A stretch of 35,631 nucleotides of DNA from Bacilli bacterium (GTDB lineage: Bacteria > Bacillota_I > Bacilli_A > RFN20 > CAG-826): the NCBI GenBank assembly GCA_017442875.1, contig JAFSPN010000037.1:1-35631 (forward strand), given 5' to 3'. Made by a program: the position numbers and the translations under genes. The notes under the pieces were generated by a model. The model ran no database searches and had not been told where the DNA came from. It was given only the letters and a program-made list of their open reading frames with translations. Positions 4,681 through 32,672 of this stretch are shown piece by piece; within the stretch, counting starts at the first letter, position 1; the number at the start of each line of letters is the position of its first letter.

Positions 4681-5661
4681 TTAATTTCTTTTGAAATTAA
4701 TTAAGAATAGTTCAAAACTGTAGAAGCGGTCCACAAGGCCGCTTTTAATATTTAAATCAAGTTGATATAAATCTTCTAGTGTTTGATTGATGGTTTTTTG
4801 TGAAATAACAAAACTATTCTTTCTTAGAATCTTCGCTCTAATTGGATTGATGGCGAGTTCTTGAGCAATCGCATCAACATCATATTTCTTTTTTACTAAA
4901 TAAGCGACTCGATCTAATAAACGGAATTGATTAGCAATCATTGAAATTAAAGTGACTGGTTCGACGTTGCTGCTTTTTAAATCGCGATAAAGCGATACCG
5001 CTTCAATATTGCGTTCATCTATTAAGTAATTAAATAAAAGGAAAGCGTTTTCTTCTAATGGTCTAGTCACCATTAAAACGACATCATCAAAACGAATGTG
5101 ATCGGTATATAAGGCTAGTTTAGAACCATTATTAAATAAAGATGCATAATCGCCTTCGGTGCGTCTTGCTAATTCTTGAACGGCGTCACTATCGATTACT
5201 GTATCAGGCCATTTCTCTTTAAAATAATGGGCCACGACTTGATGCCATTCGTTTTCTTTTGGTTCAGTTAAGTTGATGATCTGCCCATTTGATTCAATGG
5301 CTTGATATATTTCACTTTTCTTATCAATATCACTACTAGAGGTATTGACTAAAAATATTAAGTCGCAACTTTCATCTGGATGATTGATATAATCAATCAA
5401 TTCTTGATAATTCTGATCGCTTTCAATCTTATTTTTTCCTTTTTCTTTAAGAAGAAAATATGGATTGTCCACGACGACCGCTTTATGGTCATATCCTAAT
5501 GGTAAATAGTTAGCTTCGTCCACTATTTCTTGTACCAAAGTAAAGGAAGCATCATGCTTTACAAAGTTAATAGCGTCAATCTCGCCAAGTGATTTCTTGA
5601 CAATACTTTTCATCTGGCTTTTTAAGCGAATATTCTGCTTTCCTGAAATAAGATAAATCAT
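4681..5661 (-). CDS. holA: DNA polymerase III subunit delta (clamp loader)
   Basis: A 326-aa HolA. This is the clamp-loader subunit that opens the beta sliding clamp ring. The N-terminal MIYLISGKQNIRLKSQMKSIV matches the family start. The middle has the NDP-type KPxENEWHQ block and the helical RRTEGDYASLFNN segment, and the C-terminal collar domain holds NQFRLLDRV and NPIRAKILRKNS. Length is normal. The gene stands alone on the minus strand, convergent with rpsT. Its ATG is exactly seven bases from a perfect TATAAT and has no Shine-Dalgarno, so it appears leaderless. In many Firmicutes holA lies close to comEC and rpsT. Here it is beside rpsT and ~500 bp from comEC, which supports the call. 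Confidence 0.92.
   Translation of the reverse strand: MIYLISGKQNIRLKSQMKSIVKKSLGEIDAINFVKHDASFTLVQEIVDEANYLPLGYDHKAVVVDNPYFLLKEKGKNKIESDQNYQELIDYINHPDESCDLIFLVNTSSSDIDKKSEIYQAIESNGQIINLTEPKENEWHQVVAHYFKEKWPDTVIDSDAVQELARRTEGDYASLFNNGSKLALYTDHIRFDDVVLMVTRPLEENAFLLFNYLIDERNIEAVSLYRDLKSSNVEPVTLISMIANQFRLLDRVAYLVKKKYDVDAIAQELAINPIRAKILRKNSFVISQKTINQTLEDLYQLDLNIKSGLVDRFYSFELFLINFKRN
4724..4746 (+). terminator. rpsT terminator embedded in holA
   Basis: AAGCGG(T)CC - ACAA - GGCCGCTT forms an 8-bp stem with one bulged T, followed by TTTTAATATTT. It is the first good hairpin after the rpsT stop and lies within the antisense of holA's 3' coding end. Confidence 0.6.
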
Positions 5662-5708: not shown

Positions 5709-5737
5709 TTGACAAAGCTATCCAAAATAAGTTTAAT
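5709..5737 (+). promoter_or_regulatory. Near-consensus promoter with no protein gene downstream
   Basis: TTGACA (5709-5714), 17-nt spacer, TTTAAT (5732-5737). The predicted start is ~5744. No plus-strand ORF follows, only a structured stretch and a terminator. Confidence 0.6.
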
Positions 5738-5743
5738 AAAGAT

Positions 5744-5806
5744 GGTCATTGATTAAGTGCTTTGCATTTAGACCAGAAAAGCGGTTAAAGCCGTTTTTTC
5801 TTTTTT
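5744..5806 (+). ncRNA. Candidate small RNA, antisense to the 3' end of the 117-aa gene
   Basis: Following the consensus promoter, the sequence folds as GGTC (5744-5747) pairing with GACC (5771-5774). This encloses AAGTGC-TTT-GCATTT, a 6-bp inner stem with one G-U pair. A second hairpin, AAAAGCGG-TTAAAG-CCGTTTTT (5777-5798), ends in a long T-rich run, as in an intrinsic terminator. Expected length is about 55-63 nt. The 3' end overlaps the last codons of the opposing gene at 5785-6138. No Rfam family was recognised. It could be an antisense regulator of that gene or a trans-acting sRNA. Promoter and folds are seen in the sequence; expression is inferred. Confidence 0.45.
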
Positions 5807-6138
5807 TCTAAAAATTCTTCGATTTTATCAAGGTCTTGATTAGATAGTTCATATTTCATCGTCCATCTACTAAATGTTTTTTTCTTTCCTTTTTGCAAGT
5901 ATAAACGAATGTGCGATTTTTGTTTGCCTTGGTTGATTGGTTTTTCGGTTTCGAAATATGAGTATCCAACAGGTGGATTCTTCGTGATGTTTAGAAAATA
6001 ATAATCGCCATTCTTCTGACCGCTTTCGCCAACAATTAAAGCGCCATGCCCGCTTCTATAGTATTTTCTAATATGCCACCAATTACGGTTTTTGATTATT
6101 ATAGTGCTTTTTATTCTTTCGTTATTCTTTTTCGACAT
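5785..6138 (-). CDS. Small basic protein of unknown function, last gene of the comEA-comEC operon
   Basis: 117 aa, rich in Lys and Arg and ending EKKKKRL. No signal peptide or membrane segment is visible. Features that may matter are NWWHIRKYYRSGHGALIVGES, then YYFLNITKNPP, then SHIRLYLQKG and a C-terminal helix SNQDLDKIEEFL. The order suggests a compact beta-barrel with a basic face, which would suit nucleic-acid binding. I do not recognise the family; a small endoribonuclease-like protein is possible but unproven. AAGGAG lies eight bases before the ATG and comEC ends 11 nt upstream, so it is co-transcribed with DNA-uptake genes. The candidate sRNA at 5744 runs into its 3' end from the other strand. 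Confidence 0.65.
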   Translation of the reverse strand: MSKKNNERIKSTIIIKNRNWWHIRKYYRSGHGALIVGESGQKNGDYYFLNITKNPPVGYSYFETEKPINQGKQKSHIRLYLQKGKKKTFSRWTMKYELSNQDLDKIEEFLEKKKKRL

Positions 6139-6149
6139 ATTGATACTCC

Positions 6150-8162
6150 TTAAACAAGCATTGTTTTATAAACAATCGTCCCTTCTAAATCGGTACGATG
6201 TATCTTGATTTTGTATTTATTTAAAACGTCCACTACTTCTTTATTTGGATGGCCAAATTTATTGTTCTTTCCGCATGAAATTATTGCCTCTTTTGGTGAT
6301 AGATATTTCACCCATTCTTCAGAGGTGGAGGTATTTGATCCGTGATGCCCCACTTTTAAGATGTCGCATTTGATTTTTTCTTCGCGCTTAATAATTTCTT
6401 TTTCAATATAACTAGGAGCATCTCCCATAATGAGAAAATCCTTACCACAATTAGTAAAACTAATAACTAAAGATTTATCGTTTTCATCGCTACTATTCGC
6501 ACAGTAATTATGATTATTAAAAGTTAAATTACCCACTTTAATAGGAAATACACTGTTATAGTCATATATCGCGGATACTTTATAAGACTTCATTAAAGAA
6601 GAAAGAGAACCATAATGGTCATAGTCATAATGAGTAATAAATATAGCATCAATTTTATAGATTCTTTTCTTTCTTAGGAACGGCACTAATGAATTGTTAG
6701 CGACGTCCATATAAGTTAAGCCACCTGTATCTATTAAAACTGTCTTATTCTTATTTCTAACAAATGTGCAATCTCCTTGACCTACATTTACAAAGTTAAC
6801 TTCACTGGTAATCGCATTAGTTATTGGAATAGCGTGAACACATAATAAAGATAGTTCCACTATTAAAAAGAAACGATATAAAGGGACAAATCCTTTTGAT
6901 AAATAGATGAGCCAAAGTAGATAAATAGCAAAATAAATAAAAGCTATCATCTGATTAAAAGCAGGCATATTTATCCCAAATGATAATGGACTAATAAAAC
7001 TAGTAATACCCGCTAATCCCTTAATTAAAAATTTTAAAACAGGATATAAAGGAACATAGTAAAAACAGAGTAACGAAATAAAGGCGATAAGAATAAATAA
7101 AGGCGATAGAATGATTTGAAGAGGCACCGCTAAAATTACAATTTTATTGTAATAAACCATTTCAAACGGTATGAAAAAGAGATAGATAATTAAATATCTA
7201 AATGCCCAGCGTTTAATCTTATGCTTTTTAAAGATATCGCGTGATAAAAAACTAACAATTGGAATCAAAAAACCTAAGATAAAACTATCTTGTCTAGCCA
7301 AATAATGATTGCAAAGTAAACAGAATATGCCAAAAGAAGAGATTAAAGTTAGATAAGAAAACTTCTTTTTAAGCGGATATTCATTGATCCATCTAATAAT
7401 CAAGAAAAGCATAATCTTAATAACGGTGAAACGCGGAAAAGTGAATATCGTATATAAAGATAAAATACCAATGGATATAATCTCCGCCCATTTATCCTTC
7501 ATATGTAAAGATAATAATCTTTTAAAACCAGCGTGAAACGCGCTGATAAAAATACCGCTCGCCGCTAAGAATCTGGCTAAATGTAAATCTCTAATACTAG
7601 TTACTAATTCGCTATCTCCACCATCGGAAAATAGCATTGAACCAATAAGAGATTTTTCTTCTTCGTTAAAGTTATTAAGAAGCTTATTTCTCCGCTCTGT
7701 GATTCTAATCGGATTATGAAAGTTTATCTTAACGCTTTGAACTTTAATGGCCTTAAAAACACCTTTTTTATTGAGATAACTTTCAAAGTCAAAGGAAGAC
7801 TCAAGCGTGGTAAACGAAAGGTCTTCCTTTGTGCCTTGAATCGTTAAAAAATCACCAATGTCGTAATGATGGGATCTAATATTGACGTATAGTCTTTCTC
7901 CCCCGCTGTTAAAAAGGAAATAGTTTTCTTTAGAAGCATAAACTAAACCAAGATATGAGCTTTTAAGGGGATTGGAAGGGGACTTAATGAACGAAAAACT
8001 AAAACCTAATAGAAAAGAAGCACTACATATCAAGAATAGTTTTAACTTTACCCTTTTAAAAACAAAGAAGAGAAAGACTACCACCGTTATCGAAAGTGCA
8101 ATATATGCACTAGATAAAGCTAGACCAAGCCAAAACGAAAGAAAGATGAATAAAATAATCAC
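6150..8162 (-). CDS. comEC: ComEC/Rec2 DNA-uptake channel with metallo-beta-lactamase domain
   Basis: 670 aa. The protein forms the inner-membrane channel through which transforming single-stranded DNA enters. The first ~50 residues are hydrophobic. An extracellular OB-type region follows, then the multi-pass Competence domain (~200-450). The C-terminus (from ~455) is a beta-lactamase-fold domain with VNFVNVGQGDCTF, the metal motif THYDYDHYG (HxDxDH, ~510-518), and GHHGSNTS. The nuclease-like motif is intact. The start is a GTG that overlaps the comEA stop (GTGA, 4 nt), so translation is coupled to comEA. Length is slightly short of the B. subtilis protein but all domains are present. Confidence 0.92.
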   Translation of the reverse strand: MIILFIFLSFWLGLALSSAYIALSITVVVFLFFVFKRVKLKLFLICSASFLLGFSFSFIKSPSNPLKSSYLGLVYASKENYFLFNSGGERLYVNIRSHHYDIGDFLTIQGTKEDLSFTTLESSFDFESYLNKKGVFKAIKVQSVKINFHNPIRITERRNKLLNNFNEEEKSLIGSMLFSDGGDSELVTSIRDLHLARFLAASGIFISAFHAGFKRLLSLHMKDKWAEIISIGILSLYTIFTFPRFTVIKIMLFLIIRWINEYPLKKKFSYLTLISSFGIFCLLCNHYLARQDSFILGFLIPIVSFLSRDIFKKHKIKRWAFRYLIIYLFFIPFEMVYYNKIVILAVPLQIILSPLFILIAFISLLCFYYVPLYPVLKFLIKGLAGITSFISPLSFGINMPAFNQMIAFIYFAIYLLWLIYLSKGFVPLYRFFLIVELSLLCVHAIPITNAITSEVNFVNVGQGDCTFVRNKNKTVLIDTGGLTYMDVANNSLVPFLRKKRIYKIDAIFITHYDYDHYGSLSSLMKSYKVSAIYDYNSVFPIKVGNLTFNNHNYCANSSDENDKSLVISFTNCGKDFLIMGDAPSYIEKEIIKREEKIKCDILKVGHHGSNTSTSEEWVKYLSPKEAIISCGKNNKFGHPNKEVVDVLNKYKIKIHRTDLEGTIVYKTMLV

Positions 8163-19397: not shown

Positions 19398-21527
19398 TTA
19401 TTTTTTAAATAATATCATTAAATTGCATGCAGGAAGAAAACCGTTTTTGACATTAATTGATTGCTCATCCTTTACACCTTCTAGCACTGTGTAATAGTCA
19501 TCGAGTTCAAATGAGACAGCATTGCTAGTTGGATTGATCAGGAGAACAAACTCTTTTTCTTGGCAAATGATGTTTTTATTTCTCGCGATGAGGACATAAA
19601 CACCATTATCCCAGTGGGAGATTTCAAAGAAATCCTTGAGATCTTCTTTGTTAAATAATTTCAAATACCCCAGTTTCCTTCGCAAAGAATTCATTAAGCG
19701 GAAGCGATTAACCATATCGAATCGTTCATCAACTAAGCGATAATCCATGTTATTAACGCCTAGGGTTTTGTAGGTGTTATCAAGTCCATCTTTAGATAGA
19801 CCGATTTCTTGCCCCATATGAATAAGAGGCACACCGAAGGATAGAAGAAGAATGGAATTCCCTAACATCACACGGTCTAATAGGGTCTTTTCTTCTTCAT
19901 CTGCGTTAGAAACGATTAATTTATCATAGAGGGTATTATTATCGTGACATTCTAAATAATTAATGCTTTGGTTGGCGTTATCAAACATCGGTTCGTAGGA
20001 TAATTTTAAAACGCCAGCATGGAAAGCATAATCAAGGCCAAATTGATATGATGTGTTGCCACATATATATCCTTTTTCATGGAGATTGAAAGGAGATGAT
20101 GGACCTTTAACAATATCGCGATATGAATCGTTAAAGAATCCAATCTCTTTCAGTTCTTTATAGTTATTCTTATTGGCTCTAAGATTAGCGGGTAATTCAT
20201 CACCCATATTCCAACCTTCGCCATAGAATATAACATCATCTTTGATGGCTTTTGCAATGTTATATGTCTGCTTAACTGTTTCAATATCAAGTAAGCCCAT
20301 TAAATCAAATCTTAAACCATCAATATCAAAATACTTAAAAAGATAAGAAACGCTGTCGAGAATCATCTTTCTCGCCATTATTCTTTCACTTGCAAAATCA
20401 TTACCACATCCAGAGGCATTACTAATCACACCGTTTCTTCTTTTTCTAAAATAATAATGTGGAACGAGCTTTTCAAGTACGCTGTTTTCATATTCGTAAA
20501 TGTGGTTATATACCACATCCACAACAACACGGATATTGTTTTTGTGGAGTTTATCCACCATTTCTTTGAATTCATAAAGACGTTCAATAGCATCTTCTGG
20601 TTTTAAAGAGAAACTACCTTCTAAAGCGAAGAATGATATTGGATCATAGCCCCAGTTATACCATTTTTTAGTGTCTTTATCATCAAGCGAATTAAAATCT
20701 AAAATTGGTTGAATTTGAACATGAGTAATACCTAAATATTTAAGGTAATCTAGACCCACTGGATGACCGCCTTCAGTAGTTCTTCCTTCTTCCACAAAGC
20801 CAAGATATGTTCCTTTATTTATAACATTATTGTTGTTGCCTTCATTAATATCACGAATATGGGTCTCATATATTAAAGCATCAACATAATTATTAATGAC
20901 ATTAGTAGGCTTAATTTTTGGTAATTTTAATAAAGCATCATAATTGATGACCACACTATGTTCACTATTTAAACTCGTGCCTTTAGCGTATGGGTCATTA
21001 ACGGTATAGATAATGCCATTATTATTGACAATATAATGATATTTGTAGTTTAAGAGATTTCCGAGCGCTTTATAGCGGTAAACGCCTTTATCTGTTCTCT
21101 TCATTTCAATGACTTGACGGTTATTATTTAAATCAAATAACTCTAAAGAAACTGACTCTGCTAAAGGCGCCCAAACAGCAAAGGAAGTCGCTTCTTTTGT
21201 ATAGATAGAACCCAAATCATCACCGTTATAAGCAAAGCGAGCGTCAAAATCATTAAAATCAACGACATCGCTAATGTCAATACTAGCGTAAGGAAGAGTA
21301 CCAACAAGCAAACGATAAGAAGCACCTAATTCATAATCTTCATCCAAACTGATATCGAAAAAGTAGATGATGTTCGTGGAATGAAGTCTAGAAATCGTTT
21401 CCTTTTTGATAACTTTGTTATTTTTATAAACTAATACTCTAAATGATTCAGGACGAGGAATGTCAGTGAAGACAATGACATTGATTTTACGCCAGTTTAT
21501 GAGTTTTGCTCTTAAATAGGTATTCAT
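19398..21527 (-). CDS. pulA: Type I pullulanase
   Basis: 709 aa GH13 debranching enzyme hydrolysing alpha-1,6 bonds of pullulan, glycogen or limit dextrins. An N-terminal domain (~1-90) precedes a CBM48-like region (FAVWAPLAESVSLELFD, ~100-180). The GH13 barrel carries the type I signature YNWGYDP, then VVYNH, the nucleophile in DGLRFDLMG (~405), the acid in YGEGWNMG (~435) and ECHDNN (~525). All catalytic residues are present. There is no signal peptide, so it is intracellular and likely acts on stored glycogen or imported oligosaccharides. Its ATG overlaps the ftsK stop by one base (TAATG), with AGGAG ten bases upstream. Confidence 0.93.
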   Translation of the reverse strand: MNTYLRAKLINWRKINVIVFTDIPRPESFRVLVYKNNKVIKKETISRLHSTNIIYFFDISLDEDYELGASYRLLVGTLPYASIDISDVVDFNDFDARFAYNGDDLGSIYTKEATSFAVWAPLAESVSLELFDLNNNRQVIEMKRTDKGVYRYKALGNLLNYKYHYIVNNNGIIYTVNDPYAKGTSLNSEHSVVINYDALLKLPKIKPTNVINNYVDALIYETHIRDINEGNNNNVINKGTYLGFVEEGRTTEGGHPVGLDYLKYLGITHVQIQPILDFNSLDDKDTKKWYNWGYDPISFFALEGSFSLKPEDAIERLYEFKEMVDKLHKNNIRVVVDVVYNHIYEYENSVLEKLVPHYYFRKRRNGVISNASGCGNDFASERIMARKMILDSVSYLFKYFDIDGLRFDLMGLLDIETVKQTYNIAKAIKDDVIFYGEGWNMGDELPANLRANKNNYKELKEIGFFNDSYRDIVKGPSSPFNLHEKGYICGNTSYQFGLDYAFHAGVLKLSYEPMFDNANQSINYLECHDNNTLYDKLIVSNADEEEKTLLDRVMLGNSILLLSFGVPLIHMGQEIGLSKDGLDNTYKTLGVNNMDYRLVDERFDMVNRFRLMNSLRRKLGYLKLFNKEDLKDFFEISHWDNGVYVLIARNKNIICQEKEFVLLINPTSNAVSFELDDYYTVLEGVKDEQSINVKNGFLPACNLMILFKK

Positions 21528-32498: not shown

Positions 32499-32526
32499 TT
32501 TACACCGAGTGGTAATGTGCTATAAT
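32499..32526 (+). promoter_or_regulatory. Promoter of the antisense (antitoxin-like) RNA
   Basis: TTTACA (32499-32504), 16-nt spacer ending TGC, TATAAT (32521-32526). This combines an extended and a perfect -10, making it one of the strongest promoters in the window. Predicted start ~32533. Confidence 0.75.
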
Positions 32527-32532
32527 GTAACC

Positions 32533-32590
32533 GAAGAACGAATCCTCCTATGACACTTTTGGTTACTGAGTCTCGAGGGATTCTTTTTTT
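32533..32590 (+). ncRNA. Candidate antisense RNA (type I antitoxin) over the toxin-like 3' UTR
   Basis: About 58 nt from the promoter above to a T-run TTCTTTTTTT (32581-32590). The terminator stem GAATCCTC (32540-32547) pairs with GAGGGATTC (32575-32583) with one bulged G. The transcript is fully complementary to the 3' UTR of the convergent 27-codon gene and reaches its stop codon. It contains GAACGAATCCTCC, of which CCTCC is complementary to the gene's GGAGG ribosome site. No coding potential was seen. Geometry is that of type I antitoxins with 3'-overlapping RNAs; expression is inferred. Confidence 0.6.
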
Positions 32591-32672
32591 ATGTCAGCTT
32601 TAACAGAAGGCATAGAAAGAGGCAAATCACAATTAGAATCAAAACGTATTTGAAATCCTTGAATTGTTTCAT
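32589..32672 (-). CDS. 27-aa hydrophobic peptide, candidate type I toxin
   Basis: ATG 32672 to TAA 32589, 27 aa, too short for routine gene calling. The N-terminus is basic (MKQFKDFKY). Residues 10-24 are an unbroken hydrophobic stretch of Val, Leu, Ile, Phe and Cys (Cys17, Cys21), and the end is KLT: a single membrane span with Lys on both sides. GGGAGG is nine bases upstream but is sequestered in a 10-bp hairpin. It has its own promoter (TTGTTT-17-TAGAAT) and terminator, giving a ~270-nt message with a ~65-nt leader and a ~120-nt 3' UTR. A convergent short RNA covers the 3' UTR. These are the hallmarks of type I toxins such as those of the Fst and TxpA/BsrG groups, but the sequence does not match the family patterns I know. 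Confidence 0.6.
   Translation of the reverse strand: MKQFKDFKYVLILIVICLFLCLLLKLT

Follow-up and report, generated by a model that had tools for sequence, protein, structure and literature searches.

A candidate small RNA gene facing a predicted MazF-like protein gene in an exchangeable cassette of gut Bacilli

Introduction

In the type III toxin-antitoxin systems described in PMC5086642, a repeat RNA lies upstream of the toxin gene in one operon, with a terminator between the two. According to that account, the toxins resemble the MazF/Kid/CcdB family, the RNAs that have been crystallised are pseudoknots, and the RNA is cut by the toxin; the genome search for type III systems reported there required the one-operon layout (PMC5086642). 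In the type I pairs of Bacillus subtilis treated in PMC6562991, an RNA such as RatA or SR4 pairs at the 3′ end of the toxin mRNA, and PMC6563280 describes type I toxins as small hydrophobic proteins in most cases.

We analysed a stretch of 35,631 nucleotides (the window) from a Bacilli bacterium, in which a candidate small RNA gene faces the gene of a very basic 117-aa protein. Like the type III systems ToxIN, CptIN and TenpIN, the locus combines a MazF/Kid-like protein, here by prediction, with a small structured noncoding RNA that varies between subtypes. Unlike them, it has a single convergent RNA gene with its own promoter, which overlaps the last codons of the putative toxin gene, and the window locus carries no repeat array. 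Because layout and repeat array both differ in this way, we do not class the system as type III. With the type I pairs txpA/RatA and bsrG/SR4 it shares convergent genes, overlapping 3′ ends, and an RNA with its own promoter and terminator, but it differs from them in a basic 117-aa protein that is MazF-like by prediction, in an RNA conserved in structure, and in the occurrence of solitary RNAs. The predicted fold and a weak profile match that places HP on RP are reminiscent of type II MazEF/PemK, from which the locus differs in having no neighbouring protein antitoxin gene and no PF02452 or NCBIfam match.

Results

A promoter, a folded RNA and a terminator opposite the 117-aa gene

The preliminary description of this DNA had proposed a near-consensus plus-strand promoter, a closed stem with an inner hairpin, and a terminator overlapping the end of the 117-aa gene, and all three were recovered (Table 1). 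The promoter, TTGACA-17-TTTAAT, matches the sigma-70 consensus at 11 of 12 positions. It is missing from our general promoter scan because that scan accepts only A as the second base of the −10 box. Sites of 11/12 quality numbered 5 on both strands of the window, against a shuffle mean of 1.9 (maximum 5; n = 30), and one such site is no rarity by itself. A second match with the same boxes, at 21280 on the minus strand, was set aside as apparent coding sequence on inspection by eye.

Table 1. Features of the comEC-holA interval and its flanks in the window
Feature	Position	Strand	Details
sRNA promoter	5709..5737	+	TTGACA 5709-5714, 17-nt spacer, TTTAAT 5732-5737
Candidate RNA antitoxin gene, ~63 nt	5743..5806	+	fold z −3.3; core near-identical in G004
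Hairpin 1	5743..5775	+	outer stem 5743-5747/5771-5775 (UGGUC/GACCA), 6-nt 5′ bulge
Intrinsic terminator	5776..5808	+	stem 5776-5785/5790-5799, then T-run to 5808
117-aa very basic protein gene, candidate toxin	5785..6138	−	predicted MazF/Kid fold
comEC, upstream neighbour	6150..8162	−	TIGR00361 at 173 bits, below 190.05 cut-off
holA (DNA polymerase III delta), downstream neighbour	4681..5661	−	PF06144, PF21694

The 5′ end of the RNA was placed from the −10 box and its 3′ end from the T-run. The segment 5738-5808 folds with −19.8 kcal/mol (z −3.3), a stability equalled by 1 of 200 shuffles, and the outer stem of hairpin 1 closes around an inner 7-bp hairpin at 5754-5770. The T-run overlaps the last codons of the 117-aa gene, whose stop codon is at 5785-5787, and the terminator is much weaker on the minus strand because its stem contains G.U pairs. 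Terminator-like sites in 12 kb numbered 8 against 7.0 expected, so that a single site means little by itself. By eye, the window locus holds one RNA unit. An Rfam search, which the preliminary description had suggested as a check, gave no gathering-score match in the window or in the loci of 11 relatives, and a relaxed search gave chance-level matches only (lowest E 1.3).

When 59 genomes, including the window's own, were searched with a 156-base query, the only strong second match was in G004, a genome of the same genus. The promoter reads TTGACG-17-TTTAAT there, and the spacing from the −10 box to the core is kept, as is the 34-base core, AATAAAGATGGTC[A/G]TTGATTAAGTGCTTTGCATTTAG[A/G]CC in the two genomes. 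The terminator hairpin of G004 is rebuilt from other bases, and an A is replaced by G in the 3′ arm of hairpin 1, where the pair is maintained as U.G. For this RNA type the covariation evidence amounts to a single U-A to U.G change, as no more than 2 genomes among 279 of the order contain its core (at most 3 mismatches); other covariation comes from the group A RNAs described below.

A family of basic proteins with a predicted MazF/Kid fold

A search profile, A1, was built from 11 members of the 117-aa protein family, the gene of one being cut at a contig end. With it, the family was detected in 82 of 196 genomes of the same taxonomic family, with 7 copies in the window's own genome. Across the class, the profile found relatives in 30 of 395 genomes. 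Ten of the 30 lie beyond the order, and two of those ten were judged spurious or PemK-like. A phylum-wide sample at E 1e-4 gave 26 of 392 genomes, every one within the class. The close relatives named subgroup A comprise 13 loci in gut Bacilli MAGs, mostly from ruminants. The proteins have a median length of 114 aa and a median net charge of +18, with 25% K+R. In the 10 of 15 pairs for which a value could be computed, dN/dS lay between 0.07 and 0.22, which points to purifying selection on the family protein.

Searches of phages, plasmids and viral contigs gave no similar sequence, the PDB had no match by sequence, and Pfam, NCBIfam, PHROGs and PADLOC gave no meaningful match. Weak PADLOC matches to Cas8b (9e-5) and NsnC (2e-3), in one relative each, were judged to be chance. 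PF02452 was absent from the window protein and from the 7 proteins searched beside it. In the literature, mostly non-subscription papers and no preprints, we found no account of the family, nor of a MazF-like toxin paired with a convergent RNA. On these searches it is an undescribed protein family in gut Bacilli.

AlphaFold modelling covered the window protein together with 11 proteins of group A, and the confidence of the models is modest. For the window protein (pLDDT 64.8, pTM 0.59), the top Foldseek matches were MazF (probability 1.00, E 9e-3). VIA-align superposed 93 residues at an rmsd of 3.6 with Z 8.2, a value near 8 being, by that program's own caution, unremarkable and able to come from a common arrangement. 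All 50 matches listed were MazF-type toxins or CcdB by title, and this uniformity is a stronger point than the score. A group A protein model (pLDDT 58.9) likewise had MazF/Kid as top matches, with Z 8.4. ToxN and CptN structures were absent among the matches listed for both models, which excludes nothing. The family is thus predicted to take the MazF/Kid fold.

A motif of H (76 of 77 sequences), P (71 of 77) and T (61 of 77) runs through the family, in a set from which L053, L057, L060, L143, L189, L190 and ORFs up to 80 aa long were left out. H31 and T52 of the 117-aa protein occupy the positions of the RP and TS motifs of PemK/MazF. A profile-profile alignment of the 77 members with 13 PemK proteins placed HP...T on RP...T, with P 0.0023 from this single comparison and a probability of 12.6%; a correspondence of the two motifs is suggested at most. 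In such an alignment, a near-invariant His takes the place of the Arg in the PemK RP motif. The PemK proteins of these genomes (L221-L230, with PF02452 matches) often carry GH or GHY at the position of the classic RP, and the Arg-to-His swap therefore occurs in the parent family too.

A candidate RNA gene at the 3′ end of family ORFs

We formulated a rule for RNA genes that consisted of a −10 box, a closing stem of at least 5 pairs whose start lies 2-14 nt beyond the box, and a T-run. Of 95 family loci, 65 had an antisense RNA at the 3′ end by this rule, as did 24 of 475 shuffles. The 95 loci are not independent, as they include near-identical loci, a G004 gene split over two contigs and two fragmentary genes. 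None of the 95 passed on the opposite strand. The rule was written after these loci had been seen, and ORF controls and blind loci are the fairer tests. Distinct family ORFs passed in 67 of 107 cases, whereas 13 passed among 264 control ORFs taken from the same loci; ORFs that were less than 400 bp from a family ORF, that a longer ORF overlapped, or that were too near a locus end were kept out of the controls. Forty family loci scored blind gave 29 of 40 against 22 of 400 shuffles, and 0 of 40 on the opposite strand, with near-duplicates among them and with genera and RNA types in common with the first set. The rule found nothing at 30 of 95 and 11 of 40 loci; at some of the failures, for example G000:C48 and L106, an RNA is visible by eye, and these were left out of the counts.

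A −35 element matching TTGACA at 4 or more of 6 positions accompanied 62 of 94 family RNAs, compared with 141 of 940 random positions. The median distance from the −10 box to the stem is 6 nt, which puts the start of the stem where transcription should begin. Loci from other families and genera numbered 12 after L189 (an unrelated 405-aa ORF) and L190 (a PemK-like protein) had been dropped. The strict rule was passed by 4 of these 12; a second rule detected stem and T-run in 11 of the 12 loci and in 15 of 60 shuffles, figures that become 6 and 5 once the −10 box is included.

The proposal of a structured small RNA, convergent with the 117-aa gene and equipped with its own promoter and terminator, is thus supported by the recurrence of this anatomy at most relatives, which together with the conservation in G004 lifts the RNA gene above chance. 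In an AT-rich genome, where promoter and terminator scans alone come near chance, the locus might still consist of chance sequences or a bidirectional terminator from which no RNA is made. We regard this as extremely improbable, given the strand specificity and promoter spacing with which the RNA recurs at family loci, and the near-identical core in G004.

The folds of the RNAs differ widely among subtypes, and some other family loci carry separate tandem RNA genes. In the HFRIYF..NNHPAYIVDEEGN subgroup (L079, L082-L084, L107 and relatives), the RNA gene lies inside the 3′ part of the ORF and is fully antisense, and the 'KKAG..' tail of the protein is the complement of the RNA stem and T-run. 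At L073, L149 and L063, the Shine-Dalgarno sequence appears by eye to lie within a hairpin right before the start codon, in an attenuator-like arrangement; some of the Shine-Dalgarno hairpins of family genes are followed by T's, also by eye.

Group A RNAs appear to be conserved as folded molecules

The RNAs of group A (GTTAGTG...CACTAAC-T7) gave 26 matches, 18 of them distinct. In their two helices, 98.7% of cells are paired, and sliding the partners destroys the pairing. Two pairs (3 cells) are changed on both sides, a result matched by 9 and 1 of 500 shuffles, respectively, and a covariation that comes from few sequences. The first 12 sequences contained no double change; it was seen only after solitary and second copies had been added. 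One pair is G.U in 10 of 18 sequences and would be C.A on the mRNA strand, and for 17 of the 18 the hypervariable second arm forms a hairpin. These patterns suggest that the group A RNA is conserved as a folded molecule and that the RNA strand is the functional one. A possible pseudoknot between the hairpin loop and the 3′ arm, complementary by eye, is lost in several sequences; the folding method predicts none by design.

High-scoring solitary group A RNAs without a toxin gene face rpiB in G178 and a RhuM-family gene in G021, and in G156 such an RNA is accompanied by a C-terminal toxin remnant with stop only. Second group A copies occur in G110, G146 and G201; the match in G015, at a contig end, was left out of account. 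The toxin-less RNA of G021 (L205, G021:C8) ends on the 3′ end of the RhuM-family gene (PF13310), beside which it may possibly have been re-used.

We compared each RNA with the start region of its own toxin gene at 60 loci, excluding those without a distinct detected RNA or enough upstream sequence. No pairing preference was found (mean rank 0.46 ± 0.04; n = 60), which speaks against an antisense mechanism of this kind; the comparison does not extend to 3′-end pairing. Such 3′ pairing is the mode of txpA/RatA and bsrG/SR4 as described in PMC6562991, and by analogy the RNA could pair with the 3′ end of the 117-aa mRNA and cause its decay, the toxin being MazF-like in place of a membrane peptide. 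One subgroup with its RNA fully antisense inside the ORF would fit this, and complementarity would be complete if the 117-aa mRNA, which has no clear terminator of its own, reads through the RNA gene. Yet solitary RNAs maintain structure and promoter without a toxin gene, copies in G110 and G201 lie away from the toxin 3′ end, the G.U pairs of group A would be lost as C.A on the mRNA, and the protein is basic and MazF-like, not hydrophobic. On balance we consider mRNA decay through 3′ pairing, the chief alternative, an unlikely explanation, and we favour an RNA that acts on the protein itself.

RNA and protein move as a unit at comEC-holA and other competence loci

In the window, the 117-aa ORF lies 11 bp from comEC, and no further ORF of at least 60 aa is present between comEC and holA, so that there is no adjacent gene for a protein antitoxin. 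The spacing of the two flanking genes was compared in 16 genomes of the genus. In 9 of them the gap is 35-64 bp and holds neither RNA nor protein; in five carriers of a family ORF (G000, G002, G006, G007 and G008) it is 434-564 bp; in G014 it is 170 bp with no family ORF; and in G004 comEC sits on another contig. comEC and holA are therefore the host site and stand outside the module.

The carriers have three RNA/protein types. G000 and G004 share the window type, the RNAs of G002, G007 and G008 are closed by GATGATG/CATCATC, and that of G006 is closed by TTGTC/GACAA, as judged by eye. RNA and protein are thus exchanged at a fixed address as one cassette of ~450 bp. G014 retains a GATGATG-type RNA with −10 box and T-run, in which the inner arm is CUG/CAG against CCG/CGG in G007, and the RNA can thus outlast the family gene at this site.

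Regulation of a comEA-comEC-117-aa operon, as the preliminary description had put it, is not supported, both RNA and gene being absent in 9 of 16 genomes of the genus. The partner of the RNA is more likely to be the 117-aa protein, or its mRNA, than comEC. Among the 95 loci, 26 adjoin a helicase gene that we take from its resemblance to be comFA (Pfam gives a DEAD/ResIII helicase, and NCBIfam no ComFA match), and 7 adjoin holA, 6 of these also comEC. About a third of the examined copies are thus beside competence genes, and a link with competence may therefore still exist. A stronger version, in which the RNA mainly regulates the com operon or read-through into holA and the 117-aa protein is incidental, would draw on the position of the cassette within comEA-comEC-holA and on the 33 of 95 copies that adjoin comFA-like or comEC/holA genes. 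It is very unlikely in our view, with none of the four genes used as queries turning up in the searched flank of 62 of 95 copies, and with the site empty of RNA and protein in those 9 of 16 genomes.

In the rpiB-comFA interval, modules are separated by comFA 5′ fragments of up to 56 codons with 55-70% identity. The fragments come from four loci examined to differing degrees, L064 and L067 being the clearest. It looks as if each arriving module had brought a new comFA 5′ end, by repeated insertion at one gene start. The modules may spread through homologous recombination of taken-up DNA.

Discussion

We consider it reasonably probable that the locus is an RNA-protein toxin-antitoxin cassette of convergent layout, in which the RNA holds a MazF-like protein inactive. 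The plus-strand promoter would make a folded RNA of ~63 nt continuously, and the 117-aa MazF-like protein, read from the minus strand behind comEC, would act as an RNase toxin. The RNA would bind and inactivate the protein, as ToxI does ToxN, except that its gene would face the toxin gene across a common 3′ end instead of forming an upstream repeat array in one operon. Should RNA synthesis stop or the RNA decay, the protein would be freed. Among these steps, the toxicity and RNase activity of the protein, its direct binding by the RNA, and an excess of RNA are what we infer; at the level of sequence, the scheme draws support from the RNA anatomy, the association with the family, the conserved group A fold, the exchange as a unit, and the purifying selection on the protein.

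The RNA and the basic protein could instead form a small non-toxic ribonucleoprotein, for example a defence or regulatory particle. Proteins with 25% K+R, RNA and protein types that switch together, and several copies in one genome would all suit such a particle. The predicted MazF fold with its conserved HP/T positions, and RNA-only sites that fit the loss of a toxin before its antitoxin, point away from it, and we hold a non-toxic particle to be quite improbable beside a toxin restrained by RNA.

A bolder proposal, which we advance tentatively and with somewhat less than even confidence, is that these cassettes represent a new kind of toxin-antitoxin system. It would consist of a MazF-derived RNase and a face-to-face RNA antitoxin with overlapping 3′ ends, in many subtypes among gut Bacilli, as ~450-bp cassettes that move by homologous recombination at competence loci. 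Transformation would spread them, and com transcription colliding with the RNA promoter could favour the toxin.

If the toxin-antitoxin reading is true, RNA-protein systems extend beyond the one-operon layout with a repeat array, and searches defined by type III architecture would miss convergent modules. A large and fast-diversifying set of modules would then be unannotated in gut bacteria, often near competence genes. Its natural variants of RNA/protein pairs could be used in studies of recognition specificity, and, with cassettes exchanged at com genes, the long-standing question of module spread becomes open to direct test.

The convergent geometry had also been likened to that of a locus at 32.5 kb in the window. 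The likeness holds for the geometry, but that locus is a different thing, likely a type I toxin-antitoxin pair. At 32499-32672, a 27-aa hydrophobic peptide (MKQFKDFKYVLILIVICLFLCLLLKLT; minus strand, 32672-32589, GGAGG upstream) faces an RNA on the plus strand that has TTTACA-16-TATAAT and ends in GGGATTC-T7. The RNA fold has an unremarkable z. Similar DNA was found in 8 of 21 genomes searched, with multiple copies in some and a second copy in the present one.
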